From positions 65,035,449 through 65,099,448 of the forward strand of contig OX457037.1 in NCBI GenBank assembly GCA_949752735.1: a stretch of 64,000 nt of DNA, written 5' to 3'. This stretch comes from Lumbricus terrestris (Eukaryota; Annelida; Clitellata; Crassiclitellata; Lumbricidae). Of the stretch, positions 3,098-59,692 are shown piece after piece. Numbering within the stretch: position 1 is the first letter of the stretch; every line of letters begins with the position of its first letter. Position numbers and translations under genes: made by a program. The notes under the pieces are model-generated. The model was not told the origin of the DNA, did not search any database, and saw only the letters and a program-made list of their open reading frames with translations.

Positions 3098-3322
3098 GAC
3101 TTGTGCACCAATCACTTGAAACTTTGAAAGTCACAGAGTTTATACTGATTACCGTTATTTTGTATTTGGTTGATGGCGGGTTGATGCTTTGTTAATAAGC
3201 AAATACTATTACTACCTTTTTTTGTATTTTTCTTAATTTGTTAGTGCCGTTTCAGTGCTTCTCTATTTGCATGTTTCTAGCTCAATTTAATTCAAGTTGT
3301 TTTTTTTTCTACTTAAATCCAG

Positions 3323-3397
3323 GAAAAAAGCACAAGGAATCAGTAGGTCCAGAGTACAAGTCTGGTGTCTACATATTTCCTAATGGTGACAAATATG
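3323..3397 (+). CDS. MORN2: MORN2 internal exon (start of first visible MORN motif)
   Basis: The acceptor ctacttaaatccag ends at 3322. The exon encodes a lysine-rich lead-in followed by [15 protein letters not shown]. It ends in phase 1 at a GC donor, and the split codon becomes GAA (Glu) when joined to 4398. Without this splice the frame meets a stop at 3418-3420. Confidence 0.75.
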
Positions 3398-19958: not shown

Positions 19959-20695
19959 CTACAACCTCTCACTCGAGACGTCATCTGTTGCTGTTGCATC
20001 CACAAGTTCATAAATTGGTTCTTTTGGTGACCTGATTGGACCGGTGGAACTGCTGCCCCCACCAGTGGCGCTCGCAGCTGCTGCTGATCCGCCCTGTACC
20101 TCGTAAATTGACGAATAACCTGGGTCTGTGGTACCGCTAGGATCGGGGTTTGTGGTAGCGTTAACACGTTCGTCGTTGATTGTAGAGTACGGTGATTCTT
20201 CTGCTGTTGGCACCTCCAATGGTTGGGTTGAACTGTGACCGGAGGTTGTGTCAATAGGGTAGTTTCGAAGCATGGTGGATTCATAGCATGGATTCAAGAC
20301 CATATCTCCATTGGCCACTTTGGAATTCTCGCCATTCGCACTTTCACGAGAATTAGAAACAGGCGAGTCTTTATAATGCTCGTTAGAGACTACTGCAACA
20401 TTTCCTTTAGGCTTATGGACCTGAGTGTAGAGCTCAGTTACGTTATTGGTAGGTGCTGACGATCTAGACTCTCCATTGCAACTGGTATCGACCTCTTGCG
20501 ATTCGAGACCATCTTCAGGCAAATGGTTTGCCAGAGATGAATTAGACGAAGCGAGTTGACTCTTCCTTGATTTGTCGACTTTGGCATATTTAGGAATTTC
20601 ATTGGACGACTTGATTCCATTTGGAACGTCTGATTCAGACGTCTGCAAGGAAGACGAGTTTCTTTGAGGTCTCAAAATAGCGGATGACTTCTTAG
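19959..20695 (-). CDS. Adaptor terminal exon: nine tyrosines and stop
   Basis: The acceptor gttttcttctttag ends at 20696; the frame is open before the first listed codon at 20675. Tyrosine contexts in order are KYAKV, LYTQV, HYKDS, NPCYESTM, NYPID, PYSTI, GYSSI, IYEVQ and IYELV. A Gly/Ala/Ser-rich run precedes the last motif. The stop TAG is at 19961-19959. No domain apart from these linear motifs is seen. Confidence 0.78.
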
Positions 20696-23600
20696 CTAAA
20701 GAAGAAAACAGTCCTTAAGATAGATGCAAGTGGCAACCATGGGTACAAAACATTAGTGACTTCATTCAGTGTTGTAATATGCCAAACAAATTTCTGTCCA
20801 GGGTAACGGCCTCTGTTGTTATAGATCCTGGTCAAATCGGATCCATCTAACTCCTGGCCTTGTTATCTGAAGGTCACAAGTCCTCCCCTTCGCCCTCTGA
20901 TCTTTCCATTGACAGAGTATGGTCAGTGTACACTGTACCCATTAAAGCTGAGTTGGCTATCAGGAACAGGTGGAGCATAAATATCAAAAAAAATTCTTTC
21001 CTAATGACGTTTTGAACACATGACCATTCAGTTGAGACTCTAGTATGCTAATCATTGTACAACCATACATCACCATAGAGCTGAACAACCAAGGAATAAT
21101 CCAAATAACTGAATAACTGCACTGTATATTTTCTGTTAATTCGCCTTGAGCACTCTTGACCGTTTACCAAATAAATATTGATTTGATAAATAGAAATAAA
21201 TTATTTGATTTGCAGCAAGAACATAAAATAAAATACGAAAAATTAAAGATGTGCAACAAAAGTTATTATTTTATGCATCATAATATCTCACTTGGAAAGC
21301 TTGCAGAAATAGTGCTAAAATAGTAAAGAATAGTGTTAGGGAAGGTATAGACAACATTCCAATTTAAACGTAATTTTTAAGTTCCAATGCTAGAATCACG
21401 ACTGGCATTCTGTTTCATATATGAATTAATTATAACAATGGAACGATGATGACTAATAGAAAGAAAACAAGTTCAGAACTCACACTCTTCCTTAAATTCT
21501 GCATATGGTTCAATGCTGTCCGAGGTTTTTGCAGCTGCCTTTTGTGTGTTCGACTCCTGATTAAGCTGCATAAGAAAAATTCAAATTACTGTTTTTATAA
21601 CATGCTTTTACAAAATTTACACATTCTGAAATTTTGATTGAAAGAAAGCATTCATGAATCTCAGCATCCAATGAGAACTGAAAGTCATTCAGTTAAGGCA
21701 CAATTGTTATTTCAATAAAAGTCAAAATACACAGGTCTCATACAGTAGTTCATATTTGCAGTTCCGTGACATGAACATAATTAGAGGTTTCCACTAATTG
21801 GCGAGTTATAAGTACATGGAGAATTCATGATTGAGCTTGACGACAGCTGAAAAATGGCATGGAAATGTCAGCATACAAGGACTATATGAAAAAATAAAGT
21901 AGCATTTCTGAAATAAAATATACACTCTGAAATATAACCGTTTTACAACGCATAAAATTTAGAACAGTTTAAGAATATAGACGTCAATAAACAGTTATGA
22001 CATATTTATGTAGTACTTCCTCGCTGACACAAGCTAGATAATTTGGTGAACCTGAAAAATCGGTAACAATTTACACTTCAACTGCTCAGTTGCAACTACA
22101 TTTATGAGATTATAAGATTTCTCCAAGCCCATTTGCAACATTTTAAAGAAACAATGCCTACCCTCCATTCCACTGCCAGAGAGTGAAGACATGCTCTATT
22201 TATTCGTAATTATTTTATACAGTTCTTGATTAAATTCACAATTTACCAAGTATTAGACTTCAAAAAAGCTATATATACCTGGTAATGTTCAGATGCATAA
22301 TTTAAACACAATGTAGCTATTTTGTGATTTCCACTCATGATTAAGCACTAAGCAGCATAAGAAAAAGTTATATTAAGCCTCATTTCCATCTTCAGTGTCA
22401 ACTTGTGCTAGTATTTTTTAGGACCTATCAACACTTCAACAGCACATGACGAAACAAAAAAGAAGTGAACACAACAATAAATTAAACTAATGCATATGAT
22501 ATCTTATATAAGCTGCAGTGCAAATAAAAGAAAAGATGTAATAAATTGTAAACATGGCAGTAATTCCATCTCACTAATGTCTAATGCATTAAGCAATGGT
22601 ACACCAAAATCGAAAACTTGGATGTATGGAGAATGTGAAAGAGGACCTAAGAGCACAGGACATGGACATCAGAGATGCTGTGGATAAAATCAGAAACACA
22701 ACAGCCAGGAGGAGTCTAGTTAAAGTGTATTGCAGGCGGACATGCTTTGTAGGCTGCTATTAGCGCTGTGTATTGCAGGCTGCCTGTTCTGTTAGTAGTT
22801 CAGATTTATGTCATCTGTAATTTGCATTCTTGTGAATTGTTTAAATTGCATAAATGTACACTGTAACTGGCTGCAGGCTGTCAACCGAATTGTTTCAATA
22901 AAAAATATTATTATTATTATATTGAACACCAAAAGCCAGCCATAATCAGTCCAATATGCATAAGATCTCTACAAATTGATAAGAATGGTAAATACATCAA
23001 TGTCTTGGTAGATGTTAGTATCGTCACATTCGTCCACTTTGGCGTTCGCTGATGGCGTCTTGTCAGGCAAATCCATTTCTTCGTAGTCAGGCTGAACTGA
23101 AAAACACAGCGAAAAAACTAAAACAATGCACTAAAGTCATGACACAATTAATATCTGAAGTACCTGTGACGGTCTTAATCTTGCCACATAATACACTAGG
23201 TAACAATTATTTACAGTCATTCTCGTGTGAACCCGCTTGGATTCATCATTCATATGTGACATGAATTATCCTGTGCTCATACAGACTTACAGACTATGCA
23301 AGGAAAGTCATTTTACAACACACAATTCAAGCTTCAGCAAAAGTAAACATTTACTGGTTATACATCCGAAAGTAAAAATCATACTGCTTGCAAATAGTAA
23401 AAAAATAGACACATAACTTTGCACAATGATCAGACAATTTATGATTATATTCATGTGATACCATTTATACATAATAAATAATTACAAGTAAAATCACTCT
23501 GCCTACAGCTGGCAACTTACTAGGTTTTTGAATCCTTACGATGGGTAAAAAACAATAGCTCATTGCTTGAAAGTTCAGATATGCAAAAATTGACAAAAAT

Positions 23601-26600: not shown

Positions 26601-28954
26601 GCAACTTCAATGTCTTAGCCATGGGCGGAGACCTAGGGGGGGACGGTCCCCCCCAAACAAAGTGTTGGGGGGGACGGCCCATGCATTTGTCCGCCCCAAT
26701 GTTTGAGCGTCAAGACTGTTTTTGGCAGCGAAAATAGAAAATTTCGTCGAGGTTTTGGCCGGATGACTAAAAAAAAAAAAAAGTCATCAATTTTTTTTGG
26801 CGGCGAAAATAGAAAATTTCGTCGAGATTTTGGCCGGATGACTAAAAAAAAAAAAAAAAGTCATCAATTTTTTTTGGCGGCGAAAATAGAAAATTTCGTC
26901 GAGATTTTGTCGAGATTTTGGCCGGATGACTAAAAAAAAAAAAAAAAGTCATCAATTTTTTTTGGCGGCGAAAATAGAAAATTTCGTCGAGATTTTGGCC
27001 GGATGACTAAAAAAAAAGGTCATCAACTTTTTGGCGGCGAAAATAGAAAATTTCGTCGAGATTTTGGCCGGATGACTAAAAAAAAAAATCATCAACTTTT
27101 TTGGCGGCGAAAATAGAAAATTTCGTCGAGATTTTGGCCGGATGACTAAAAAAAAGTCATCAACTTTTTTGGCGGCGAAGATAGAAAATTTCGTCGAGAT
27201 TTTGGCCGGATGACTAAAAAAAAAAAGGTCATGAACTTTTTTGGCGGCGAAAATAATTTTTTTCCCAGATTTCGCCGGTCAGAAATTTTTCGGAAAATCT
27301 CGCGTCTTTCCGTCCCCCCCAATTCTCGGCCCAGGTCTCCGCCTATGGTCTTAGCCTCAGTAGATTTTCTTAACTCATTTGTTTATTAATATCTACATCT
27401 CCTTTTCTATAGCGCCTCCTCAAGTTCATCTACCAAGGTCATCCACACTTATTCTTTCCACCAACAGTGTATGCTCATTGCTCAAGGTACATATTATAGC
27501 CGAGCTGGCTTACAAAAGTGGGTGGAGCAGAAAGCCTGAACAAAAATTTTGCCCTGATGGGACCTGAACCCCGACCTCTCAATAGACAAACAGCTGTCGT
27601 TCTCTTGGCGCCGCATGTGGCTGCCTCTATAGAGTTCGTCAATCGCTTGTCTCTGAATGGGTGTTTGTCGTTGTCAAGGCGCCCTTGTAGCAGCATGGCC
27701 GCGTTACGGCGCCTTAGAAATTGTCGTCATTATTATTATTATTATTATTAATAGACAATCCAGCATGCTAACCAGTAACCATTACACAATCAAGCACTTC
27801 AGAAATGCAGTCCAAATGTAAATGTTTTTATGTAGCAGACATGCTCCTTGATCCTGCATATTTACCTGTGAATTTATTAGGTATGCCTAATGTTAATAAG
27901 GTCAGTCACAAGTAAAAAAAAACACAAAAGTAGCTGTACAGAAAGGATAGATACAGGGTGTCCAAAAATCTAGGTTCAGCAAAAGTTCATTCACCATGAA
28001 CTGTTTCAGCTTTAGGTATGACCAAAAACGATAAGAATGCATATCAGAAAAAGCACACAATCGGCAAATTTAAACGAGCAGCCTTAGATTGGCTTGAGGA
28101 AAGAAGCGTTTTGAAAAAATCTTATCTCGATGAACAGACGACAATAACACAAAAGTGCATTATAAATAATCACCGTAAGACATTTGCTCAAATGTGAAAT
28201 AAGATAAGACCATCTTTATTCACCTGATCCTCGACATCTTCAGTTTTTGACAGGTGCTTTAACTTAACCTGAATTTCAGCCGCAGGTGCAGAATCATTTT
28301 TAAATTTCCTGTTGAATTAGAAAGAAGCAAAATTAAAGCAAATGAGAAAGTTGTTCACGCTAAAGACATCACATAACAATGAGCAAATGCAATGCCATAC
28401 AGGCCTTAAAACATCGTTTATATTACTATATGTTGCTTCTAGCCCACCTCCCCCCACATCTTAAGGTGCTACATAAATACCTATCAAAATGCAAGACAAT
28501 GTTTAAATACTCAAATCAAATGGATGGAACATCGTACTAGAAGCAGGTTTGTGTTATTCAACTATTTGGGCAAATTCATTATTAATATAAATTATTTATT
28601 TGTGACACAGGCAAAGTCACATCAAAATGTAAATCTGAGATGATCAAGAGAAATTTTAGAACTTACAATGCTTAACTTACAAAATTTACAATGCAAAACT
28701 TCTCATACAGTTAATGCAAATCAATTCAACGTAAATTCCAAATACGAAATTTAAAAAAATTCTCTCAATTGTTGGCTGAGCAATGTTACTCACACTGATG
28801 CAGTTTTCTTGCTGCAAACGCACATCAATGTCAACACCACCATGGCAACTGTTACCATGATCACACATAGCCACGTAGTAACCGGCACAGCTGGCTCTGA
28901 AGAAGTGAGCAAAGAGCTTTCTTCCGGTCCAAGAGCAGCAAAGATGAAAAACAT
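19959..28954 (-). CDS. Tyrosine-rich single-pass transmembrane adaptor, PAG/LAT-like (seven-exon model, 508 residues)
   Basis: Minus-strand exons 28954-28794, 28308-28224, 26270-26224, 24662-24349, 23096-22996, 21565-21484 and 20695-19959 join with matching phases (2,0,2,1,0,1) and sum to 1527 bases. The model has a short ectodomain, one membrane helix (about W28-M44), a juxtamembrane CVCSKK motif (C45, C47, candidate palmitoylation), then a disordered tail. All twelve tyrosines lie in residues 207-492. Most are in YxxPhi form: YEEM, YQDI, YAEF, YAKV, YTQV, YSTI, YSSI, YELV. There is also an NPxY (NPCY, 398-401). In vertebrates such adaptors (PAG/Cbp, LAT, LAX) recruit SH2 proteins to rafts; YAKV, YTQV, YSTI and YSSI resemble Csk-SH2 sites. 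Alternative: the tail of a receptor whose ectodomain exons lie upstream, using the acceptor at 28897. No orthologue is proven. Confidence 0.72.
20780..20850 (+). repeat. Short dispersed repeat shared with 39095-39155
   Basis: tgtccagggtaacgg...ctctgttgt, ataga(t/c)cctggtcaaatc and ggatccatc recur at 39095-39155 with few changes, in the same orientation. Element class unknown. Confidence 0.6.
20930..21190 (-). repeat. tRNA-derived SINE, decayed (same family as 27410-27795)
   Basis: On the minus strand a box A-like tgattagcatactag is followed about 35 bases later by a box B-like gtgttcaaaac. The body shares gctgagttggc and ggtggagca with the copy at 27480. It lies in the adaptor intron. Confidence 0.5.
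21484..21565 (-). CDS. Adaptor exon 6: YAEF motif
   Basis: The acceptor tttttcttatgcag ends at 21566. The exon encodes LNQESNTQKAAAKTSDSIE then PYAEFKEE, with the donor GT|GTGAGT style at 21483, phase 1. Confidence 0.65.
22630..22920 (+). mobile_element. Retroelement 3' end with ATT tail
   Basis: The stretch gacatcagagatgctgtgg to gtttcaataaaaaatatt followed by (ATT)n has the shape of a LINE 3' end: a short decayed coding part, then a tail. The frame is too short for family assignment. Confidence 0.45.
22996..23096 (-). CDS. Adaptor exon 5: YEEM and YQDI motifs
   Basis: The acceptor ctgtgtttttcag ends at 23097. The exon encodes QPDYEEMDLPDK, then ECDDTNIYQDID, and the donor GAT|GTATTT is phase 0. 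YEEM fits the PI3-kinase p85 SH2 consensus YxxM. The two tyrosines are about 25 residues apart, too far for a standard ITAM (6-12 residues between motifs). Confidence 0.65.
24118..24320 (+). mobile_element. CR1/L2-like LINE, 3' end fragment
   Basis: catgcctcctcggtggtagg...cattcctctctcatctgaag matches the LINE end at 29770-29965, followed by ggataacctctgagtagttc and an ATGA-type tail. It lies in intron 4 of the adaptor gene. Confidence 0.75.
24349..24662 (-). CDS. Adaptor exon 4: Ser/Thr/Pro-rich, tyrosine-free
   Basis: The acceptor cattacacttcag ends at 24663. The exon encodes a low-complexity segment rich in Ser, Thr, Pro and His, without tyrosine. Two donors six bases apart (GTAGAG at 24354 and GTGTTT at 24348) both leave phase 1, so proteins of 508 or 506 residues could arise. 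The open frame upstream of 24662 is LINE-tail sequence. Confidence 0.6.
24680..24800 (-). repeat. Reversed LINE/SINE tail
   Basis: Reads atataaatttatatagtgcc then ttagaggtgctcccag on the plus strand, the reverse of the common 3' tail. Confidence 0.55.
25200..25380 (+). mobile_element. CR1/L2-like LINE, 3' end fragment
   Basis: cctggaatggttttcctctg, then ctctcttatcttaggacag and gggagcgcctctgagtagtc, closing in gaatgaatga. It is close to the copy at 29790-29965. Confidence 0.8.
26224..26270 (-). CDS. Adaptor exon 3 (47-base microexon)
   Basis: Flanked by gtttgttgatttag and a perfect GTAAGT donor. Encodes MTEAKTEEMDDGNSA and a split Ala codon. It enters in phase 0 and leaves in phase 2, matching both neighbours. 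Confidence 0.65.
26620..27347. mobile_element. TIR element, CATGGGCGGAGACC family, copy 2 with expanded internal array
   Basis: It starts catgggcggagacctagg and ends ccaggtctccgcctatg. Perfect 8-bp direct repeats gtcttagc flank it (26612-26619 and 27348-27355). Inside, about eight units of 65-85 bp built on ggcggcgaaaatagaaaa, ttcgtcgagattttggccgg and atgacta plus an A-run follow each other from about 26716 to 27270. Copy 1 at 7060 has only about three, so the internal array has expanded here. There is no transposase. Confidence 0.9.
27410..27795 (-). repeat. tRNA-derived SINE, split by a second insertion at 27590-27749
   Basis: Read on the minus strand and skipping the insertion, it gives gtaatggttactggttagca, tgctggattgtctattg and ggggttcaggtccc: clear tRNA box A and box B at normal spacing. 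The tRNA-unrelated body continues to about 27410. Confidence 0.75.
27590..27749 (+). mobile_element. Short retroposon with (ATT)n tail nested in the SINE
   Basis: The direct repeat aatagacaa (27581-27589 and 27750-27758) flanks a 160-bp insert that starts acagctgtcgttctcttgg and ends in ATT repeats. This is the signature of target-primed retroposition. Confidence 0.75.
27955..28165 (+). mobile_element. Mariner/Tc1-like end fragment
   Basis: tacagggtgtccaaaaatct is the typical end of mariner-like elements. The following 200 bases hold a short decayed frame. No matching right end was found. Confidence 0.4.
28224..28308 (-). CDS. Adaptor exon 2
   Basis: 85 bases between ctaattcaacag and the donor CAG|GTGAAT. 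It encodes KFKNDSAPAAEIQVKLKHL and SKTEDVEDQ, a charged juxtamembrane segment. It takes one base from the preceding phase-2 codon and ends in phase 0. Confidence 0.65.
28794..28954 (-). CDS. Adaptor exon 1: start and membrane helix
   Basis: ATG at 28954-28952 opens MFFIFAALGPEES; the helix reads WLCVIMVTVAMVVLTLM, then CVCSKKTAS. The donor GT|GTGAGT is at 28793, phase 2. A strong acceptor (gctcacttcttcag) also ends at 28897, so the exon may instead begin at 28896 in phase 1, with the ectodomain encoded further upstream. The ORF listed in another frame here is a shadow. Confidence 0.65.
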
Positions 28955-29369
28955 GCTTCACAGGTTCTCACTAGAATGAGTCAACTACAAAATAACATAT
29001 ACATCAAGCTGTGATCACTAGGAATAAGCAACTGTGTCTAAAACCAGTGCCTGCTCAAAGTTGCCAGTCTGCTGAGCTCTTTATTCAGAAACTTACATTG
29101 TATAATAAAAAAAACATCAAAATTAACGATGTTTCAACTCATTCAAGAACATAAAGAGCTCCTTAACATAAAATGTTATTCAGCAGCAAAAACCTGCTGA
29201 AAATTCCATATTTTATTCCTGGCAAGTCCGCACTCTGCCTTTCATTTAATGATCTGCAAAGAAAAATACATAGTCAAGTGACAGTCTATGCATTAATTAG
29301 AATGTTTACCAACCACTGGCATAGATTAGTTTTGAAACAAACTTTTTATAAAAATTAATTTTTTGTTTG

Positions 29370-45356: not shown

Positions 45357-45414
45357 ATGGGTTACGGATCTGTGGTACTTCTATCCATAGTAATCAATAT
45401 CTGTCGTGAAATTG
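45357..45414 (+). CDS. Receptor exon 1: signal peptide
   Basis: ATG at 45357 is the first Met in a frame that encodes MGYGSVVLLSIVINICREI. This is a short but plausible signal peptide, followed by the donor TTG|GTACGT in phase 1. The open frame extends upstream to 45186 without Met. Chosen because it joins in frame to the Ig exon. Confidence 0.55.
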
Positions 45415-48400
45415 GTACGTCTTGTAAAATACGCAGATAGTAGGCTACTGTTACAGAGCTCGCTCATATACCGACGAATGTTGAAAATAATTCTCAGCTT
45501 TTCATAATGCGCTTAAACCTTGCTAAATTTGTAACGAATTTGATGTTGCATTTAGAAAAATTATTAATGTCATAATTAAGGTACTTTATATCATTACTTC
45601 ACCCTCGAGTATCTTATGCAGAAACCATCAGTTAACACACCCTAATCAAATCAAAATCAAATCAAATCAAATCAAATGGCATCAAATGAATCCGTTAACT
45701 GATAAAACATGACAAATAAAACTTGAAACTATAATAATAATAACAGTAATAATAATGATAGACCCTAATGATAATAATAATAATAATGATGATAATAATA
45801 ATAATAATAATAATAATAGGCCTAAATAATAATAGGCACATTTGTGGACTTCAGTGTTGACGAAGCTCGGTAGTTCCAGAATTTTAATCTTAGGATAGCT
45901 TTTAACAACCTGAGAGATCATAAGCATACGCACCTCGGGTAATAAATTCTAAAAAATTAATAAAAAATTAAAATGATTAATAATAATGATAGTCAACATC
46001 ATCGTCACGTTTGATACTGACACATCGCGGTATGATTGCAACAGCATAAATGGATGATCTCAAGTTAGTACAGGAGTTAGGACCTAAGGAGTAGAATTTA
46101 ACTGCTGGGCAGCCAAGCAACACGTCCATCATTTCCTGTTGTTCAATTATCTGGTACCATAATCAGTCGAATAGACCTATTAGATTGCGTGCATTTCAGA
46201 TTCAAAGCTTATTGTGATGCCTCGCGACACTGAAGTGAAGATAAACGATTCGACTTATATGAACTGTTCTACGTCGCTTCAAGCAGACAAAGTTCAATGG
46301 CGTCATGGCAGCAATTATGTTTACACCGGAATAAGTTTGCTAGAACCTTATAACCGTGGCAGGTTCTCGGTTGAAATCAACACCTCGACTGGAGCCAGCG
46401 ACTTAGTTATTCGCTCAGTTCAACCTTCAGATGCCGGAACATACGAATGCACAGAGGATGAAGGGTCTGGAGAAAAGCGCTCGGCTCAGCTCATAGTTTT
46501 ATGTATGTCCATGCCACGATTTTATTCTCTTTAAAATCTTAGATTAACGTCAATTTAGAATAAGGTCAATCGTTACAGCCTAGACCTACATAAAATTAGT
46601 CATTAGGCCTATTCATTCTGAGAATTTGCCTAGCGCCTCTTCAGTCTTCAACCTCTATGCACACAAGTAAAATTCTCCTAAGATATTAGAGAGAGGAGTG
46701 CCTGATAGGGAGTTCTAGAGATGGAACGAAACGTCAAGAGGGAACTAGTGGCGGCGCCAGGATTTAATTTTGGGGAAGGCTGAATCTTCGCGGAGGAAAA
46801 TTTCATTTTCATCGCCAAAATTTCTGACAATTTTTTTGGTCATCGATCGAAATCTCATGGAAAATGTCCTTTTCCATCGGCCGAATTTCTGACCACTTTT
46901 TAAAGCCATTGGCCGAAATCTCACGGAAATGTTCCATTTTCATCCGGCGAAACTTCAATTTTACATGTAAAAAATACCGACTGGCCTTTTTTAGGGGGGC
47001 TTAGCCCAGGATGTTCTTGTTTAGGGGGCTTAGCTCCCTGTCACCGCCACTGGGGGGGGCTGGCACTTCCACCGAGAAGGCACGGTTCTGCCAAGTGAAA
47101 GTGCGAGCAAAATGGACAAAGAGCAGACTTTGAATGAAGGGAGCACATGTGTCATGTGACGTGCACAAACAGTAGGGTAACAGAGCTCGCTCATAATTTT
47201 TATGCTGATCATCCCAAAAGTGTTTGCATTAGCCGTTGTATGGACGCTATAGGACCTAGGCCTACTTATGTATTCGACACCTCAAACTATTAATATCAGA
47301 GAGCCGAACTACGTAGTAAAAGTGCATGCTACGAATTCTACGATGATAGGCTACATTACAGTGGTGTGCAAAAGTCTGGCACCACCTAGAAATATCGTGT
47401 TTTTTCGACTTTCCAGCCTGTTACTCGCATATTTTCATATGCCCAATACAAACTTTTGTGTGTAACATCATGGGGGATATATTTGGCTATTAGAAACAAC
47501 TTTTTATTCTAGGTTGAACAAAATTTTACCATTTTTTCTTGGAAGTTGCCATGGTAATGGTTTTTTGTGTGTAAATCTCGTAATTTGTACTTCTTTGGCC
47601 ATTGGTGTAAAAATATATTAGTATGGTTAAAACAGGTCATGTGTGGCATAAATTCGTTTATAATCATTCATTTATTCATTCATTCATTTAGAAAATTTAT
47701 ATAGCGCCCCGGTATTCAAGGAAACTACTCAGAGGCGCTCCCAGTCCAACCACGGCTAAAAAGATAGGTTTTCGAGCAACTGATAGAAAGCAGGCAAATT
47801 ATTCCGAGGTATACAGTAAGTGTAGCTCTAATCCTTTAGTTGGCATTGAAAAGGAAGTTTTGTGGACAGTTATGCCTCAACATTTGGTGAGCCACCCCTT
47901 ATTCTTGATCACCTGTCGGCATCGTGTATGCATTGAGTGCACCATCTTAACGAGGTAGTCATGGGTAATGACATGGTGCCTGGTAGCGATGAGCTACTCA
48001 CTCAGCTCGCAATTACTGGTGGGATTTCTCTTTGATATCTTTAAGGCTATTTTGTGCCAGGAATTCTCAACCGGATTCCAATACGGGGACTGGACAGACC
48101 AGTCCAGCGTCCTGATGTTGATCTGACACTCCCAGTGAGTTTGGCGCGATGGCATGTTGTATTGTCATCACAAGAGAAGAACTGATCCTGGAATAGCTGT
48201 TGTGCTGAGGGTGCGCTGCAATTCTACAGTAGTCCCACTGTTCTTGGTTGCGTTAACCATTCCATCGATGACGTGAAGGCATCCTACTCCAATGGCAGCC
48301 AAGCAGCCCAGACCACGATCTTCAGAGGATGTTGCCACATCAGGACGCTGGACTGGTCTGTCCAGTCCCCGTATTGGAATCCGGTTGAGAATTCCTGGCA

Positions 48401-51400
48401 CAAAATAGCCTTAAAGATATCAAAGAGAAATCCCACCAGTAATTGCGAGCTGAGTGAGTAGCTCATCGCTACCAGGCACCATGTCATTACCCATGACTAC
48501 CTCGTTAAGATGGTGCACTCAATGCATACACGGTGCCGACAGGTGATCAAGAATAAGGGGTGGCTCACCAAATGTTGAGGCATAACTGTCCACAAAACTT
48601 CCTTTTCAATGCCAACTAAAGGATTAGAGCTACACTTACTGTATACCTCGGAATAATTTGCCTGCTTTCTATCAGTTGCTCGAAAACCTATCTTTTTAGC
48701 CGTGGTTGGACTGGGAGCGCCTCTGAGTAGTTTCCTTGAATACCGGGGCGCTATATAAATTTTCTAAATGAATGAATGAATAAATGAATGATTATAAACG
48801 AATTTATGCCACACATGACCTGTTTTAACCATACTAATATATTTTTACACCAATGGCCAAAGAAGTACAAATTACGAGATTTACACACAAAAAACCATTA
48901 CCATGGCAACTTCCAAGAAAAAATGGTAAAATTTTGTTCAGCCTAGAATAAAAAGTTGTTTCTAATAGCCAAATATATCCCCCATGATGTTACACACGAA
49001 AGTTTGTATTGGGCATATGAAAATATGCGAGTAACAGGCTGGAAAGTCGAAAAACACGATATTTCTAGGTGGTGCCAGACTTTTGCACACCACTGTAAAT
49101 AAAGACTGAATGCAATGAGAAATTCGAAAACGAAGAAGTCGAGTTTCATGCGCAGGTTCTTCAAGCTATTGATTGAACTCATTGAAAGGAAAGTCTTTAG
49201 AATCAGTTCTATTATTTTTAGATGACGATCCTGTTTGCAAATCCAATATGCATTCTGATGGGGTTACTGGACCGAATAGCTGCAATATCGAACCAGAGGA
49301 AGTTGAACTTTCATGCAGCATAAAATACTACGGCAACATTCCTCCTGTCCTTCAATGGAGAATGAGCGGAGATAATCAGTCAGTTGCAGATGGCCTGTTG
49401 AATGTTACATACAGCACTAAGGAAGTAACAAACACACTGACGCTGAAAAGCACAGTCGGTCTGAATAACTCTACGTTTGTTTGCCAAACAACGAGAACCT
49501 CAGGAAATTGCTACAGCTGCTCTTCTGACACCATAAACATCCTATGTAAGGGCTTCTCTGCATGCGTGTAATTTTGGAATACTTAGCAATTTCAATTTAT
49601 TATTAAAACCATACGAAACTAATCATTATTGGCTAGTTGACTTCGTTGCAGAAATTGGTAGGCTATAGGCCTAATTGTGGACCAGTGTTTAATCTAGACG
49701 TCTCTGGGGGGGGAAAGTTCCCCCCCTCCAGGATTGACATTTCCCCCCCCAGAAAAATTTGACGAAATGGTATTGGTTTTTAGTTACTGTTTTCATCATT
49801 GTTTTACATGAAGTGTTATAATACACCATGATATTATTTATAATTAAATGATTATAATGACATTATTTACTACTATAATATATGATACTATCTTGTTAAG
49901 ATGACACCTTAAAATGCAGCCATTGCAATGTGGAAATTCAAAAAGTTTCTAATGTGTCACTGAAAAAGTACAGCTATTTTGTTAAGACGACACCTTAAAA
50001 TGCTGCCATTGCAATGTGGAAATTCAAAAAGTTTCTAATGGGTCACAGAAAAAGTACAGCTATTTTGTTAAGACGACACCTTAAAATGCTGCCATTGCAA
50101 TGTGGAAATTCAAAAAGTTTCTAATGGGTCACTGAAAAGGTAGAGCTATTTTGTTAAGACGACACCTTAAAATGCTGCCATTGCAATGTAGAAATTCAAA
50201 AATTTTCTAATATGTTACTGAAAAAGTACAGCTATTTTGTTAAGACGACACCTTAAAATGCTGCCATTGCAATGTGGAAATTCAAAAATTTTCTAATGTG
50301 TCACTGAAAAAGTGCACCTATTTTGTAAAGATGACCCCTTAAAATGCTGCCATTTAAATGTGGAAATTCAAAAAGTTTCTAATGGGTCAATGAAAAAGTA
50401 CTCCTATTTTGTAAAGATGACCCCTTAAAAGGCTGCCATTGCAATGTGGAAATTCAAAAAAGTTCTAATGGGTTGCTGAAAAGGTAGAGCTATTTTGTTA
50501 AGATGACCCCTTAAAATGCTGCCATTGTAATGTGGAAATTCAAAAAGTTTCTAATGTGTCACTGAAAAAGTACAGCTATTTTGTTAAGATGACACCTTAA
50601 AATGCTGCCATTGCAAGGTGGAAATTCAAAAAGTTTCTAATGGGACACTGAAAAAGTACACCTATTTTGAAAAGATGGCCCCTTAAAATGCTGCCATTTT
50701 AATGTGGAAATTCAAAAATTTTCTAATGGGTCACTGGAAAAGTAGAGCTATTTTGTTAAGATGACCCCTTAAAATGTTGCCATTGCAATGTGGAAATTCA
50801 AAAATTTTCTAATGGGTCACTGAAAAAGTACACCTATTTTGTAAAGATGACCCCTGAAAATGCTGCCATTGCAATGTGGAAATTCAAAAAGTTTCTGGTG
50901 GGGAGGAGCGCACCCCCTCCCCATATTCCTCCCCTCCCAGTCTAGGTGTTACGCGCATCACGAGCGTCCTTCGGACGCTCAATTGTCTCCCCCCCCAGAA
51001 ACCTCAATTCCCCCCCAGAGGAGGGGACTAGATTAAACACTGATTGTGGACGAAAGCGCATTACGAAATTTCATGTTGAGCCTAGCCGCCTATATCAAAT
51101 AAGTAGGCTGCATGTAGGCCTATAGGTCTACATGAAAAACATAAACAAGGACTAGACAACACTGATAGGCCTATTCTCGAAAATAAAGCTAAATACAACA
51201 ACCGGATATTTCATTAGCCGGCTTTTCATGATATCTGGGCCCACATTACAGTGGCTTGCGGCGTGTTCGCCAAAAATCCAATGAACAACATTTGCACGTC
51301 CTAAAAACTTGAACATGCAACATGGTCATTGGTCAATGGTTGCAACCAATTCATAAAAAAAATAGTCATGTTCTACGCAGGAAGACCTACAACTGCGGTA

Positions 51401-53679
51401 GACATAAGCATACACTTTGAAATCACTAATCGAACGGTTATAATTTATTAGAATATTACCGAACTCACATTATTCTTTTCATAATATCAACAGATTATAA
51501 TTTTAGCAGTTTGAAGCGGTATTGCGTTTGATTCAATTTGTTCAGACGTGCTTAGCAGCGAAGTGACAGTAAACATGACTGTGGATGATGATGTCAGTTG
51601 TGTCGCGAACACCAGCCAATCATGCAGTTACAAATGGAAATGGTTCAGTGGTGATGACTCCATCACAGAGTCTGATGATCAGAATTTGACACCAAAGAAA
51701 GTCGGATGGCATCGATGCGAAGCAACTTGTTTAGTTGGGAACAGATCATCATGCACGGTGGAGGTCATGAAGGCTGAAGTTAATCCAAGAGGCAATAAGC
51801 AAATACATGCTCAAGTAGATTCAGATTCTGTCAATGAAGGGAACCCAGGTACAGGTGAGAGTGATTCACTACTATTTTATGGTCTATTTATCCTTACTAT
51901 TTATGGTCTATTTATCTTTACTATTTATGCTCTATTTATCTTTACTATAAATTTTATGGTATATTTATCTTTACTATTTATGGTATATTTATCTTTACTA
52001 TTTATGGTATATTTATCTTTACTATTTATGGTCTATTTATCTTTACTATTTATGGTCTATTTATCTTTACTATTTATGGTCTATTTATCTTTACTATTTA
52101 TGGTCCATTTATCTTCACTATTTATGGTCTATTTATCTTTACTATTTATGGTCCATTTATCTTTACTATTTATGGTCTATTTATCTTTACTATTTATGGT
52201 CCATTTATCTTTACTATTTATGGTCTATTTATCTTTACTATTTATGGTCCATTTATCTTTACTATTTATAATGGTCTATTTATCTTCACTATTTATGGTC
52301 TATTTATCTTTACTATTTATGGTCTATTTATCTTTACTATTTATGCTCTATTTATTAGTTATCTTTACGGTCCAACGAATATTAGGTTTAGTACTCGAAT
52401 GTATCGTGCATAGGCGCAAGCTAAGTTGTTGAATCTGACTTGATTTTACTTTTCGGCCGATATGTGCTTAATTTAGTTTGCATCCGTTGCTTACCCGGTA
52501 CCAGTACTGTAGTAGTTTACAAACTACTGTTTCTCTTATGGAATAGCCTACATGTACCTTTTATTTAATCTTAGGATAGCTTTTAACAACCTGTTACTAT
52601 TTTTGTGAATGCAATCTAAAAACTTTTTCCTTTCTAAACATAGCTTACGTGTATTATTTGCACGTCTTTCATAACAATCGCAATCTTAGTCTCCAAATTT
52701 CTAATCGAAAGCCAAGCGCGGGGAACCAGCTTATTCACGAGCACTGCGTTGCGCCAAAAGGGTTGTCCGTAAGAGTACCGTAGTCCAAAGGTGGTCCGGG
52801 TCGAGTTACCATAGAATCAGAGGGGGAGGAACAGTTACCAAGGCGGGTGTCGTCTGGGTCGGGAATTGGAAGGTGGAGGATCAGATGAGACCGGGTTAGA
52901 GTTCTTGAAATGGAGTGTCTTCAGTTTCGAATGAAAAGTCCGAGGTGTGATAGATAGAGGAGCCTGAGGAGGGTGATGGTGTGTGATCAGTAGGCCCTAA
53001 TGTTGGCGGGGGAACTAAAAATGATCCGAATTCAGACGGCAGATCATTCCAAAGGCTTGGTGCTGTGTTGGATATAGCTCGGTTGGAGAACTTGAGATGA
53101 CTTGTGTTAATTAGACTAGACAGGCACTAGGCTAGGCGAAATAGGCCTAAAATAACTTTTTCTTAAAACAATAGAATGCGGTTATAGTCGAGGTATCTTT
53201 AGCAGTTGCATAGACTAAATGAAATGTCACGGTTTATTTTTAATACACGATTAATCTTTTCTTATTTTATGCAACGAGATAAAAAAAAAGCACGTGACTA
53301 TAGTACTCCAATCTCTTTCATTTTAGTTGCCAGCAGCAGGAATAATGTTGATCTTGTTGTTGGTGCTGCTTGTTGTGCCCGCGGCTGTGGTTATCGGTGT
53401 AGTCAAACACAGATTCTGTGGACCAAGTACGTAAACCCGTGTCTAATAGACGCTTCAATTATTGTTAGTCGTATGAACAACATTGGCGTATTATATCTAC
53501 ATGTCTCGTCCTGGGCACGAGCCGCACGACGTTAAACTGCATCCATCTTCCGCCACAGATTATGTCGATTCATATAAATATAATGAGAGCAGATTATGAC
53601 CTATAGTACTGCATTGAAGCCATTTTGGACTTACTTATTGTCATAAATACTACTACTACTAGGCTACTACTACTGATGC

Positions 53680-53749
<70 letters not shown>

Positions 53750-56700
53750 TAACGTAGTCATTGAGGTTTTTCACATTTGATTGCTAGGCCAACCAGAACT
53801 CGGAGGAACGCGGCGTGATGCAGAAGATCTGGAACTACAACGACATAGTCCACTTGGTATTGGTTGCACCTTAAACTCAGTTATAGGCTATAGCCTATAT
53901 GTTTTAAAATTAGACTCAGTCTCATAAGCTTATTCATCCAATGCTCTCACAAGGTAGGCCTACATCAGTGGTTCCCAACCCGTGACCCGCGGGCCAAACG
54001 TGGCCCGCCAGGTCTAAAAAATGTCCCTCGTCCCTCAAATAATTAATAAAAAATATATAACAAAAATGGCCATTTGGACTGGATAGAACACCTAATTATA
54101 TTCCATTACACATTATTTTATTTTGACGTCTATAAATAGGCCTAACACCAAACATTCTATTTTGATTCAATTATAACAATTTTATATATACTTTTAGTTA
54201 ATTAAATTCAAGCCTTGTGGCCCGCTAATGTCCTTCAACTAAGAAAAAGTGGCCCTCGTGTCCTCCAACTTAGAAAAAGTGGCCCTAAAGTGAAAAAGGT
54301 TGGGAACCACTGGCCTACAATCATGTATTAGGCTATATTCAGTACCTGTTGTCTTGTGGTTATCGGCTTCATGCATTCTAATACCATTACGTTATCCAAT
54401 GCAAGCATATTATGTAACGTCCCTGTTCGGAACTGCTCCATTCCGACAACTCAATGGAAACATTTCAGTAGCTACTAACATGCCAATTGCCAAAGCGCAT
54501 ATTTTGCAAGACGGAGCGTGCCGTACTCCTATCACTGATGCACGTTAACATAGCAAGCGTCTACTACATAGGCCTAACTCTGCAAAGGCTTCCAGCACCA
54601 CGTAGGCCTAGAGCTATCTTTGTTTACTCTTCACCGTCCCTGGTCTACCTGACTCTGGTTTATTATAGTCTGGAACGTCTTTGCAGACGGCCAGGACTGT
54701 TAAAAATAATTTCTTCCTTGCGTCATCGACCTTTGCTGCCATGCGATGTTTACAGGGTGGGCAAAAAGACTCCCATAAGTTTTTGTGTGAATATCTTGGC
54801 CAGAAGTATGAATCTAGAAATGAAATTTTACTGTCTTGAAAACAATTCATATTATACGCATGATGGCCAGATTTCATCAAACTATTGCAAACAGAAAAAA
54901 GTTATACTTTTAAAAAGGATACTACTACTACTTAAAAAGTTACCACTTTTAGTGAGGCCACCCACCGTTTTTGACGATTTAAAAACGTAACAAAACAAAA
55001 AGTAAAAAAACACGTTTTTGTTAAGTCTCATCCATTGACTAAGGTGGCCTAGAACGATTTGAAGGAGTAACAGCTCTAGCTTCTTCATGTCGCTAGCCTA
55101 TATACAGGGTGGTCCAGCATAAATGTCCCAAATTTGCATGCATGTAACTCCGCCAATTTTTGGAATTTATTTATACTTTATAAGTCAAATGAAAGGTAGT
55201 TCACTCTAGTATTTGCACTTAAAAATGGAACCGATAGGCCTACTGGTTTAGGTTTTAATTATATGCTCGGAACAGCTCTAGCTACCATATTTTGCTGCAA
55301 TTTGTGACGCAATCTGACGACGTTGACAGACGATGGTCGCGTTTTGATCTTAATTTTACGAACTGATTAGGGATTTAATTCGTTTGAAATGATTAACGAA
55401 TTTTCTAACAGAAGATGGAATAAACAATATCTTGAACTATCTGCTACAGAAAATTGATAAAACAGGACTTTCTACTCGCAAACCATGGGAATCGGTGAGC
55501 ACGGCGCGCACATCCGCTAACATTGTCTTGTGTCCGAGTAAATTTGAAGTCAATACAAAGAGCCGGGCAGGCCCTACAAGCAAATTTTACGGGTCATTCA
55601 GCGCGAAACAGGTAGTCCTAGAAGCACCGTATAACGCATTCTAAAAGATGATCTAAACTTTTAAAGTCATTCGTCGGCGTGATGTCCAACAGCCCTACAA
55701 CGCTGACGCAAAGAAACGGCTTCTTTGCGTCTTAAGCGGCGCGTGGCAGCGCGCACGGCCGTTGATAAAACTGAAAGGACACGGTTTAGCGAAGAGAGGA
55801 TATTCATGGTAGAGACTACTACAAACACCCAAAATGATCATGTCTATGCGCGTGTTAGCAAAAAGCAATCTGTGAATGTCCCGAGGAAACGACGACATAC
55901 TGCGTCAACAATGACTACAAAATATGGTAGCAAGCGCTGTTCCGAGCATATAATTAAAACCTAAACTTGCATCAGTTCCATTTTTAAGTGCAAATATTAA
56001 CTAGAGTGAAATCTCTTTTATTTGACCCATAAAGTATAAATAAATTCCAATAATTGGCGAAGTTATACGTATGCAAAGTCGGGACATTTATGCTGGACCA
56101 CCCTGTAAATTTCACATGTAAAGCTATTCAATTCTTATTAGAATGAAAACTTTTCTTACAAACCGATTGTCATTCTCACAAAATCATAAATTTAATAGTT
56201 TTGAGGTTTTGTTGCAATGTTTCCGTTTTCAGATGGGCTTCCAGAGAAATATAAATTGGCGCTAGTTTTTGTTACGACGATAAAAACAGAACCAGCAGAA
56301 GATGCAAAGAAATCGATCTTTGGATTGTCGATTCTAGACAACGAATTGTTTGTTTTGAGTGAAAGAAGTTCAAAAGTTGAAGTTTACGATTCGATTAAAT
56401 TCAATTTCAGTCGTCAGATGGATTTGAAGGAATTGATTGATCCGTGGGACATAGCATCCTGCAACGGAAACAAATGTCTCTACATCTTCGATTTCAAAGG
56501 TTATCAGAAGGTGAATGAGATCTTAAGGGTTGATCGAAATGGAAATTTAATCAAGAAATGGTTAACAGGATACGATCAAGGATGGGGTTTGTCTGTAACA
56601 GATGAATTGAATGTCATTTTAACTATTTCTGACAGAAATATATTTACTGAATATTCACCAGACGGAAACTTGATCCGTGAAATAAATCTATCAGCCGAAG

Positions 56701-57227
56701 GTATTCATTGTCCAAAGCATGTTATAAAACTGACCAATGGTCATTTCGTGGTCAGTCATAGCGATGATATTGATGATCTGCATAGAGTGTGCGTGGTGAG
56801 TGCAGATGGAAAACTAAATATCTCGTTCGGTGGAAAACGTGGATCCAACATGGAACAAATGAATGAACCATTCCATTTCTTCGTTGATGAGGATGAATTT
56901 GTGCTCGTCGTTGATCGAAAAAATAGCCGAGTTTTGTTATTGGGATCAGATTTGGAATTTAAGAGAGTAATTCTCTCAAAAGAAAAACACGGATTGCGAC
57001 GTCCAATGAGGATTCTTCTGGATGAGTCAACTGGTCGACTGTTTGTGGTTGACAACGAATGGGGCTGTGAAGGAAGGATTTTGATATTTAAATTTTGTGT
57101 AAGTCTTATGCGACAAACGACCAGATTTTATTTTAAGCTTTTAACTGATTGCAAAAATAGCATAGATGTAAAAAAAACAATGAAAATAAAATTAAAAACC
57201 GAAAAAAACGTCTTTTTTCCAAAATAA
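45357..57227 (+). CDS. Single-pass Ig-superfamily receptor with intracellular NHL-like beta-propeller (seven-exon model, 716 residues)
   Basis: Exons 45357-45414, 46200-46502, 49222-49545, 51546-51854, 53334-53426, 53788-53856 and 56233-57227 join cleanly: all six introns are phase 1 and the sum is 2151 bases. The product is a signal peptide (1-19), an Ig domain (C42, W53, DAGTYEC at C103), a second Ig (about 122-228), a third Cys-rich Ig-like domain (230-331), a membrane helix (335-355) with KHR stop-transfer, a 23-residue linker, and a propeller from about 386. The propeller matches that of the TRIM gene at 7.8 kb (DPWDIASCNGNKCLYI against DPIDIASCNHNKCLYI). Ectodomain N-glycosylation sequons are frequent. 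The propeller would face the cytoplasm. I know of no named protein with this order; a ligand-sensing or immune role is inference. The first exon and the 3' end are the least sure parts. Confidence 0.78.
45645..45835. repeat. (ATCAA)n and (AAT)n microsatellites
   Basis: tcaaatcaaatcaaatcaaa at 45650-45675 and ataataata runs at 45725-45830, in intron 1 of the receptor gene. Confidence 0.9.
46200..46502 (+). CDS. Receptor exon 2: Ig domain 1
   Basis: The acceptor gcgtgcatttcag ends at 46199. The exon encodes YMNCSTS, KVQWRHGS, GRFSVEI and SDAGTYECTED, the B, C, D/E and F strand hallmarks of a V/I-set Ig fold. The donor T|GTATGT is at 46503. Phase 1 on both sides, as for shuffled Ig exons. Confidence 0.85.
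46625..47135 (-). mobile_element. Reversed LINE 3' end interrupted by a TIR element
   Basis: Minus-strand LINE tail sequence (compare 15170-15390) occurs at 46625-46740 and resumes at about 47055 with ccgagaaggcacggttctgc and cagactttgaatgaagg. Between them sits the AGTGGCGGCGCC element. Confidence 0.65.
46745..47052. mobile_element. TIR element AGTGGCGGCGCCAGG, short copy
   Basis: The left end agtggcggcgccaggatt and the right end tcaccgccactg are imperfect inverted repeats of the type found at 35677-40297. The interior carries ggccgaaatctcacgg and aaatttctgacaat repeats. No clear duplication flanks it. Confidence 0.6.
47359..49095. mobile_element. Tc1/mariner foldback element with ~760-bp inverted arms
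   Basis: Ends cagtggtgtgcaaaagtctg are inverted and flanked by TA (47357-47358, 49096-49097). The arms 47359-48118 and 48337-49095 are inverted copies, about 99 percent alike in the parts compared. Each carries the 3' half of a Tc1 transposase gene; the right arm reads SPYWNPVENSWHKIALK, the DDE-domain block with the last acidic residue in the usual PxxNPxE context. The 218-bp centre continues the transposase on the minus strand only. Both arms contain the same LINE tail insertion. The 5' half of the transposase is missing, so the element is not autonomous. Confidence 0.88.
49222..49545 (+). CDS. Receptor exon 3: Ig domain 2
   Basis: The acceptor tctattatttttag ends at 49221. The exon encodes VELSCSIKYYG, LQWRMSGD, LTLKSTVGLNNSTFVCQT and an extra Cys pair (CYSCSS). 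Several NxS/T sequons. The donor T|GTAAGG is at 49546, phase 1. Confidence 0.82.
49683..51042. mobile_element. hAT-like TIR element holding a 12-copy 86-bp array
   Basis: The left end cagtgtttaatctag and right end ctagattaaacactg are inverted. 9-bp repeats attgtggac flank the element (49674-49682, 51043-51051). From about 49890 to 50900 the interior is a tandem array of 86-bp units. G- and C-runs lie just inside both ends. No coding frame. It lies in intron 3 of the receptor gene. Confidence 0.88.
49890..50905. repeat. 86-bp tandem repeat, twelve copies with exact spacing
   Basis: The anchor ccatt of gctgccattgcaatgtgg falls at 49920, 50006, 50092 and every 86 bases to 50866. Units differ by substitutions (for example ttaagacgacacc against taaagatgacccc) but the period never changes. 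Confidence 0.93.
51546..51854 (+). CDS. Receptor exon 4: Cys-rich Ig-like domain 3 and stalk
   Basis: The acceptor caatttgttcag ends at 51545. The exon encodes VSCVANTSQSC, YKWKWFSGDDS and GWHRCEATCLVGNRSSC, then a hydrophilic stalk. The donor ACAG|GTGAGA is at 51855, phase 1. The long open frame beyond this donor is a 24-bp minisatellite. Confidence 0.8.
51880..52350 (+). repeat. 24-bp minisatellite in receptor intron 4
   Basis: About nineteen copies of tttatggtctatttatcttt plus actat-type units. Because 24 is a multiple of three, the frame entering from exon 4 stays open and would read as an LFMVYLSL octapeptide repeat. It begins a few bases after the donor at 51855. Confidence 0.9.
52670..53110 (-). 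repeat. Dispersed repeat shared with 5190-5425
   Basis: Reverse-complement match to the MORN2 intron repeat. It also shares ggttggagaacttgagatga with 30238-30255. Probably a LINE or long SINE remnant; class not determined. Confidence 0.5.
53334..53426 (+). CDS. Receptor exon 5: membrane helix
   Basis: In phase 1 the exon reads AAGIMLILLLVLLVVPAAVV then IGVVKHRFCGP, an unambiguous single membrane helix with a basic cytoplasmic flank. The acceptor region contains cagcagcag (53331-53339), giving alternative sites three bases apart. The donor A|GTACGT is at 53427. The longer open frame in another register here is a shadow. Confidence 0.82.
53675..53752. repeat. (ATT)n microsatellite
   Basis: About 25 ATT units in intron 5 of the receptor gene. 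Confidence 0.95.
53788..53856 (+). CDS. Receptor exon 6: cytoplasmic linker
   Basis: 69 bases between gattgctag and the donor TTG|GTATTG. Encodes SQPELGGTRRDAEDLELQRH then SPL. Phase 1 at both ends, so skipping it would keep the frame and bring the propeller 23 residues nearer the membrane. Confidence 0.7.
53966..54312. mobile_element. hAT MITE CAGTGGTTCCCAACC
   Basis: The left end cagtggttcccaacc and right end ggttgggaaccactg are inverted. The flanks gcctacat and gcctacaa agree at seven of eight bases. Interior phrases such as gtggcccgc are typical of this hAT group. It is non-coding. Confidence 0.85.
54755..54960 (+). mobile_element. Mariner-type end fragment
   Basis: tacagggtgggcaaaaagac resembles a mariner-like terminal repeat. 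No partner end found; about 200 bases of decayed sequence follow. Confidence 0.35.
55104..56105. mobile_element. Mariner/IS630-like element with decayed transposase
   Basis: The left acagggtggtccagcataaa and the inverted right end gctggaccaccctgt bound about 1 kb, with TA beside both ends. Plus-strand frames read RKPWESVSTARTSANI then FKVIRRRDVQQPYNAD and KKRLLCVL. These resemble the helix-turn-helix part of IS630/mariner transposases, but stops at 55642 and 55653 break the frame. It lies in intron 6 of the receptor gene. Confidence 0.72.
56233..57227 (+). CDS. Receptor exon 7: NHL-like propeller
   Basis: The acceptor atgtttccgttttcag ends at 56232. Blades show SKVEVYDSIKFNF, GWGLSVTDELNVIL, FTEYSPDGNLIREINL, PKHVIKLTNGHFVVSH, LHRVCVVSADGK and NSRVLLLGSDLEFK, ending in STGRLFVVDN and RILIFKF. 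The last 40 or so residues after RILIFKFC run into A-rich repeat sequence and are probably not original. A perfect donor (TGT|GTAAGT, 57099) lies there too, so a further exon cannot be excluded. Confidence 0.85.
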
Positions 57228-58639: not shown

Positions 58640-59200
58640 ATGGATTGTGTCCGTCGTTCGCCTTAGAAATTGACTCCGGTCCTGCTCTTGTCCCTGCACA
58701 GCTTGTCTCCAAGGCGACCACCCCAGAGGCTTCAGTGATGGTAGAACACTTCATCCTCTTCGATGCAGCTACGGGAATCTAAGCTTCGCCAACTCTCAGC
58801 AACATGAGAAGTAGTGTCGAGTGTCGGACACTGTCATACACAGGTCAGGTATCGTCTTAAACTGGATGAGGGCAACATCGTCTGCCCGCTTTGCATCTTC
58901 ACTTTAGATGCTGAGAGCTTTCTGCCCAGGGATTTCGGCTCTTCCCATCGCTCCCTAGTCGTTTTTGCTTTGGCATTCCGTGCCACCGTTGTTTCCCCCC
59001 ATCCCTCTTTAATAAGTCCGGTGAATCCCTTTGCGTCAAATTTAAGCAACGGCATTCTAAAAACCTACTCTTGTGCTCAAAAGAGTTGGGCGTTCTATAC
59101 TTTCATGTTCATATAGCCTGTCTCAACAATATACTTGTTTATGACGAATTCGATGTATTCTGGTCGGAGACTAATAAATAAATGACTAACGAACGGCGTT
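58640..59200 (+). repeat. Possible retroelement remnant
   Basis: The segment is less AT-rich than its surroundings and ends in gagactaataaataaatgac, like a retroelement tail. No frame could be assigned. Confidence 0.3.
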
Positions 59201-59221
59201 TAGGGGCGACTGCCTGTTACA

Positions 59222-59692
59222 TATGAATCGAATGTCATTTTAGCTGTTTCTGTTAAAATAAATTGAACAAATATACGTCAGATGGTTAAATAAATCGTGG
59301 AGAGTTTACCTTGGTCATTACATGCTATCCAACTGCTTAATAGTCACTTCGTGGTCAGTGAAGGCTCTTCCGCTGAGAATGTTTATTGTAAGATGGAACA
59401 CTTTTGAAGTCATACGGTGGACTAGCTGGATCGACTATCCGACAAACGAATGTTCCAACCTATTATTGGCCGTCGATGGAAATGGCTTCGTGATGGTCGT
59501 TGATGAATGAAGCCGCCGAGTTTTGTTATTTGATTTAGATTTGGAATTTAAGAGAGAAATTCTTTCAAAAGAACACGGAGTAGGCCTATACGAAATCCAA
59601 CGAAGATTCTATTAGATCATATGATCTTGAATTTGTGGCTTAGGCTTACAATGTAGCGAACAATAATCGGATTCTGATTTTCAAAATGTGAA
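59222..59692 (+). pseudogene. Broken NHL-like propeller copy, paralogue of receptor exon 7
   Basis: Nucleotide similarity to 56600-57095 is clear and collinear: gaatgtcatttta, gtcacttcgtggtcagt, gccgagttttgttatt, gatttggaatttaagagag, aaagaacacgga and tctgattttcaaaatgtga. Stops and frameshifts occur throughout (for example TGA after GATGAA near 59508), and the first blades are missing. It ends RILIFKM then TGA, which shows where the family normally stops. It supports local duplication of the propeller exon. Confidence 0.8.

Follow-up and report, generated by a model that had tools for sequence, protein, structure and literature searches.

The plus-strand interval 45357–57227 is probably one gene, encoding a type-I receptor with three Ig-like domains outside the cell, one membrane helix and a cytosolic β-propeller of the NHL type. 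It lies within a 64,000-nucleotide stretch of Lumbricus terrestris DNA, referred to here as the window, which contains exon/intron genes together with transposon-like repeats.

Gene structure

Seven segments of the plus strand (Table 1) join into a product of 716 amino acids, and translation with a frame check placed each internal junction in phase 1. An earlier note, made from the letters of the same DNA, had described seven exons with matching phases. The segments, the reading frame and the phase-1 junctions stand as described, whereas the acceptor of exon 5 had to be corrected and the linker exon is doubtful.

Splice sites were scored with generic consensus matrices, and the cut-offs were set at ≥ 0 for acceptors and ≥ 2 for donors. 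On this generic score, the propeller acceptor at 56233 belongs to the top 1.3% of the 671 AG dinucleotides of 45.0–57.5 kb. The donor of exon 2 ranks in the top 11%, and good scores are thus not universal among the accepted exons. To be in the hydrophobic frame, exon 5 must begin at 53334 or at the next acceptor, 3 nt downstream; the AG located 7 nt upstream gives another frame. A scan of 51.9–56.2 kb for internal phase-1/phase-1 exons returned exon 5 as the sole exon above the cut-offs; its three matches are the acceptor variants of this exon. The linker exon (53788–53856) fails the cut-offs, with an acceptor in the top 10% of the 671 AGs and a donor in the top 35% of 654 GTs. Judged by splice score it is indistinguishable from chance and may not exist. 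Because its length is 69 nt, skipping it preserves the frame.

The signal-like start in exon 1 is a short hydrophobic stretch with a peak hydropathy of 1.5, as assessed by eye and by hydropathy. The single membrane helix that had been proposed to follow the Ig domains was recovered by the same hydropathy measure, with a mean value of 3.3 in 53334–53426. Together with the basic residues after the helix, the signal-like start and the helix point to a type-I topology, in which the Ig domains would be extracellular and the propeller cytosolic.

Several introns of the gene carry repeats, which are also listed in Table 1. The inverted repeat of intron 2 is either a foldback element of recent origin or a palindrome created by the assembly, and the 24-nt array in intron 4 reads as a long artificial open reading frame (ORF). 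Elsewhere in the window, the ORF with repeated tyrosine motifs and the membrane-helix-like ORF upstream of it possibly belong to another receptor gene facing away from the Ig-propeller gene. The ORFs near the beginning of the window contain putative MORN-like repeats, judged by their pattern.

Table 1 Positions of the exons of the Ig-propeller gene, of the other propeller copies and of further features in the window.
Feature	Position	Strand	Evidence or remark
Exon 1, signal-peptide-like start, ends in phase 1	45357..45414	+	Aligned to the start of P0002, which is more hydrophobic
Exon 2, Ig domain 1 (V/I-set)	46200..46502	+	Pfam Ig_2 1.1e-8
Exon 3, Ig-like domain 2	49222..49545	+	Below the Pfam cut-off (Ig_2 0.0057); homology to the second domain of P0002
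Exon 4, third Ig-like domain with stalk	51546..51854	+	Homologous to P0002 domain 3, 34%
Exon 5, membrane helix	53334..53426 (or starting 3 nt later)	+	Hydropathy, splice scores
Possible exon 6, 23-aa linker, may be skipped	53788..53856	+	Weak splice sites
Exon 7, NHL-type six-bladed propeller plus extension of about 40–45 aa	56233..57227	+	Family profile, AF2, Foldseek
Inverted repeat, 718 nt, perfect (intron 2)	47401..48118 and 48337..49054		Arms 100% complementary, 218 nt between them
Tandem array, 86-nt units (intron 3)	49802..50961
Tandem array, 24-nt units (intron 4)	about 51804..52440
1-kb element, inverted ends of about 225 nt (intron before exon 7)	55100..56110	.	Repeat search
RING/B-box exon of TRIM gene, donor phase 1	10694..11816	-	zf-B_box 1.5e-7, zf-RING_UBOX 2.7e-7; coiled coil by eye
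Paralogous NHL propeller exon of TRIM gene, acceptor phase 1	7775..9054	-	Pfam NHL 4.6e-6
Third propeller-exon copy, broken by stops and frame changes	59171..59582	+	DNA 65% over 406 alignment columns
ORFs with presumed MORN-like repeats	3199..5704	+	By pattern
ORF resembling a receptor tail, with repeated tyrosine motifs	19959..20714	-	No Pfam match
Membrane-helix-like ORF, upstream of the tyrosine-motif ORF	28793..28957	-	By eye

Ig ectodomain

Exon 2 matched the V-set model of Pfam (9.6e-8) as well as Ig_2 (Table 1), both past the cut-offs, and with at least one Pfam Ig domain the product is a member of the Ig superfamily. The profile of this domain also matched Ig structures, among them 8qpx and 8ovq, which are presumably sponge chains. 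A filamin-type Ig behind the "Ig" label was considered and rejected; exon 2 fits V-set and I-set families, and no filamin model was among its matches. In TRIM71-type proteins the filamin domain is Ig-like as well, but it is cytosolic and of a different kind; such a domain is listed for P0061.

The second and third domains are weaker by Pfam. Exon 4 had no Pfam match, and a profile-profile comparison of Ig3 with Ig1 gave no match either; its Cys/Trp spacing is Ig-like by eye. Both domains are related to those of P0002, a protein of 561 amino acids that has an ectodomain of the same three domains and the membrane helix as one unit, with 35% identity over 300 residues. Ig1 is 44% identical to the first domain of P0002, and a search over 934 window ORFs connected Ig2 and Ig3 with its second and third domains (3.7e-17 and 4.8e-11, respectively). 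The three Ig-like domains of the earlier note are therefore of unequal standing: Ig1 passes Pfam, while Ig2 and Ig3 are weaker and backed by homology to P0002.

The tail of P0002 is an AMP-binding_C_3 domain (9.3e-14), unlike the propeller of exon 7. P0002 (two member sequences, one contig) could be a case of a second odd tail on this ectodomain, or a chimaeric assembly. Its structure model is poor (mean pLDDT 42.7), with residues 31–120, corresponding to the first Ig domain, alone reaching block means of 66–76, and it is no evidence on Ig2 and Ig3.

Propeller domain

Exon 7 scanned alone remained below the Pfam cut-offs (DUF3598_N 0.023, NHL 0.27), and its assignment comes from the family profile and the predicted fold. 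The family alignment, A1, has 50 rows, made up of 49 of the 58 relatives (P0051–P0059 omitted) and the window exon 7. Compared with PDB profiles, it matched Thin (4e-30), TRIM71 (1.1e-29), TRIM3 (8.9e-21), TRIM2 (4.8e-20) and Brat (1.5e-11). Some relatives exceed the Pfam NHL cut-off themselves, for example P0003 (5e-9) and the propeller of the window TRIM gene (Table 1). Identity of exon 7 to 48 of the 49 other A1 rows is 41–67% (47 of them over at least 240 columns), the remaining row, P0048, being 34% identical.

The AF2 model of exon 7 has a mean pLDDT of 89.8, with block means of 89–98 over residues 11–290 and low confidence for the last 40 residues. Its 24 strands were counted as six four-stranded blades. 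In a Foldseek search against the PDB, the 24 best of 1870 matches are NHL domains, including those of TRIM2, TRIM3, TRIM71/Lin41, Thin, Brat, Mei-P26 and NHL-2, and other propellers come after them. The A1 profile and the AF2 model thus agree on a six-bladed NHL fold, in agreement with the NHL-like propeller proposed earlier. The label "TRIM-type" was likewise appropriate, as profile and fold fit the NHL domains of TRIM proteins and Brat and a paralogous exon stands behind a RING/B-box exon in the window.

The propeller ORF overruns the usual end of the family by about 40–45 residues, and P0003 and P0017 stop just past the last blade. The extension looks like the result of a displaced stop codon, which may mean decay. 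The exon 7 propeller has a net charge of −6 and a pI of 5.7; the median pI of the family is 7.1. Pfam detected no RING or B-box domain in exons 2–7 or in the four longest plus-strand ORFs of 53.9–56.2 kb. TRIM (RBCC) proteins are defined by a RING and a B-box in one protein, and by its predicted domains the Ig-propeller gene would fall outside this group.

The propeller exon as a phase-1 cassette

Two further copies of the propeller exon are present in the window. One belongs to a TRIM gene, modelled on the minus strand by joining 11816–10694 to 9054–7775 through a predicted splice (800 amino acids), and its propeller aligns with exon 7 in two blocks, at 47% and 42% identity. It contains a very acidic insert of 137 residues (8518–8107), which by our strand assignment falls between strands B and C of blade 4. 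The other, downstream of exon 7, is broken (Table 1).

The N-terminal modules of the relatives are diverse. P0001 (401 amino acids from a 1707-nt contig, one member) has a signal-like start, a short ectodomain, a membrane helix (hydropathy 3.8), a charged linker and a propeller with 53% identity to exon 7 over 284 columns. P0033 combines coiled coils, recognised by eye, with a membrane helix and a same-family propeller, and in P0060 a CARD (1e-14) is joined to such a propeller. P0004 also has a CARD, which is detected at 2.5e-6 when the first 138 residues are scanned alone and is invisible in whole-protein scans. These four and the window TRIM are the five proteins in which an N-terminal module can be recognised, and all of them have the propeller at the C-terminus. 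The exon behaves like a phase-1 cassette placed behind RING/B-box, CARD or membrane modules. The N-terminus of P0047 looked by eye like an Ig end fused to the propeller; Pfam gave no Ig match and the protein was not used. Pattern searches for further loci yielded 19 and 23 stretches in viral contigs and 35 in genome contigs, none of which was confirmed.

A propeller tree was built from 57 rows, with P0002, P0056–P0059 and P0061 omitted and the acidic insert of the window TRIM cut out. The three membrane-type propellers are ungrouped in this tree, which is open at 35 of its 54 inner forks and has an unsettled bootstrap. Given this scatter, P0001 is evidence for this kind of architecture rather than for the ancestry of the present gene; the membrane-type propellers may nevertheless have a single origin.

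Probable connection between the Ig exons and the propeller

We infer the splice to 56233 from the phase, order and strand of the exons, the strong acceptor, the absence of a competing exon in the scan described above and, as the strongest independent evidence, the layout of P0001. A matching phase would by chance alone occur in one of three cases. Between the possible linker exon and the propeller ORF, a 2.4-kb interval, there are 15 plus-strand ORFs of at least 35 residues (beginning at 53857–56232). A Pfam scan of the four longest of these and of the linker ORF found no N-terminal domain for the propeller (best E 0.018). Since no RING or B-box was found before the propeller, its being part of an ordinary TRIM is disfavoured. 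Against the joined model, the 1-kb element with inverted ends just before exon 7 points to disturbance of the region. The Ig-membrane-NHL order put forward in the earlier note is supported by the exon phases, by the layout of P0001 and by the finding of no other N-terminal module before the propeller. A single record combining Ig, membrane helix and NHL propeller, for which that note had suggested searching, was not found in the protein collection, neither among two matches from 7999 candidates nor among four from 3156. Both searches are leaky, as they missed P0004 despite its length being in range, and they test absence and presence weakly.

It is unlikely, in our estimation, that the interval holds two neighbours, an Ig-membrane gene whose tail is short or of another kind and, at 56233, an orphan exon or independent propeller gene. 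Another tail on this ectodomain is seen in P0002, and the broken copy at 59171 shows that stray propeller copies occur. An in-frame ATG at 56217 could also start a stand-alone propeller, as could an upstream exon that escaped detection, but the ATG sits inside the polypyrimidine tract of the strong acceptor. A separate Ig gene is further opposed by the membrane exon, which ends in phase 1 with no other phase-1/phase-1 exon above the cut-offs before 56233, and a separate propeller by the C-terminal position of this domain in all five relatives described above.

Far less probable still is an origin of exon 7 from a TRIM gene whose RING exon has disappeared, the leftover propeller now being read, if at all, along with the Ig gene as a passenger. 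A paralogous RING gene is indeed present in the window, and both the displaced stop and the broken copy 2 kb downstream are in line with decay. However, the exon 7 propeller is free of internal stops, retains the family-wide identity and the high-confidence fold described above, and has as its nearest relative in the tree a sequence other than the window TRIM propeller. A single gene, in which exon 7 is the cytosolic end of an Ig receptor, accounts for the interval better than either reading.

Comparison with known systems

NHL propellers are known mainly from cytosolic TRIM proteins, where they form the end that binds clients or RNA. By profile and fold, the propeller is common to this gene and the TRIM-NHL proteins, including Thin, whose propeller is like exon 7, and a RING/B-box version of the family is present in the window. 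TRIM-NHL proteins have a RING and a B-box, where this gene has a signal-like start, Ig domains and a membrane helix instead. TRIM2, TRIM3, TRIM71, Mei-P26 and Brat are included in TRIM subfamily C in PMC3503706.

Among the relatives, P0001 and P0033 share the membrane helix and the same-family propeller with this gene, but have a short ectodomain or coiled coils, respectively, in which Pfam found no Ig domain. Mycobacterial PknD (match 1rwi) is a membrane protein with an NHL propeller, as here. The propeller of PknD is an outside sensor with the kinase inside, whereas the propeller of this gene would be inside. Alr1 and Alr2 of Hydractinia are type-I proteins with a small number of Ig-like domains and a single helix. 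They are Ig-type membrane receptors like the present one, but no propeller tail is described for them in the accessible part of the review PMC11999971, and the words NHL, TRIM and propeller are absent from its main text. The TLR-like receptors of sponges share an Ig ectodomain and a cytosolic signalling module with this gene and have a TIR domain where the propeller sits here (PMC8242945). A figure legend on sponge pattern-recognition receptors in that paper names NHL, CARD and IG, and a similar protein could be there.

No Ig-membrane-NHL receptor was found described in the literature searched, from which subscription journals were mostly absent; the earlier note, too, had named no receptor with this order. 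The domain combination is accordingly one that we did not find described, and the gene model is well supported but unproven.

Possible function of the propeller

By convention, the B-C and D-A loops form the face of the NHL domain that binds RNA or proteins. In this family, the BC and DA loops are more variable than the AB and CD loops (2.23 versus 1.43 bits per loop, 11 loops each), as counted in 49 family rows (P0048 omitted) over columns with at least 30 letters, with the blades assigned by us from the DSSP list. None of 20000 loop-level permutations gave a contrast as large, and the Mann-Whitney p value is 2e-4. This variable face fits a family whose members would bind different clients. 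The conserved AB and CD loops may be tight turns kept for folding, which weakens the argument from the variable face, the comparison being internal to this family.

In the proposed mechanism, binding of a ligand by the Ig part would cluster the receptor, and the propellers, once clustered, would bind a cytosolic client through their variable face and concentrate it at the membrane. In this role the receptor would be a recruiter that binds clients in the manner of the related TRIM and CARD proteins and has no ligase activity of its own; because it is without a RING, ubiquitination would need a partner protein. A protein client is favoured, since the exon 7 propeller is acidic. The direct link to ubiquitin or RNA machinery suggested in the earlier note was not supported: there is no RING, and the slightly acidic propeller disfavours RNA binding, although it leaves it possible.

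More speculatively, the diversified phase-1 NHL cassette may be part of a lineage-specific immune toolkit, as the shared interior recognition module of RING ligases, CARD adaptors and Ig receptors. We regard this wider proposal as tentative and doubtful. According to it, the propellers would let receptor, ligase and adaptor meet on the same client, as TIR or CARD tails do elsewhere.

If the gene model is correct, the NHL propeller, in addition to its place in cytosolic proteins, would also be the inner end of a surface receptor. Extracellular recognition could then be wired straight to a substrate-recognition module of the ligase type, with no kinase or adaptor motifs in between. RING, CARD and membrane modules would share one interior recognition domain by exon shuffling, across three immune-like classes of protein.
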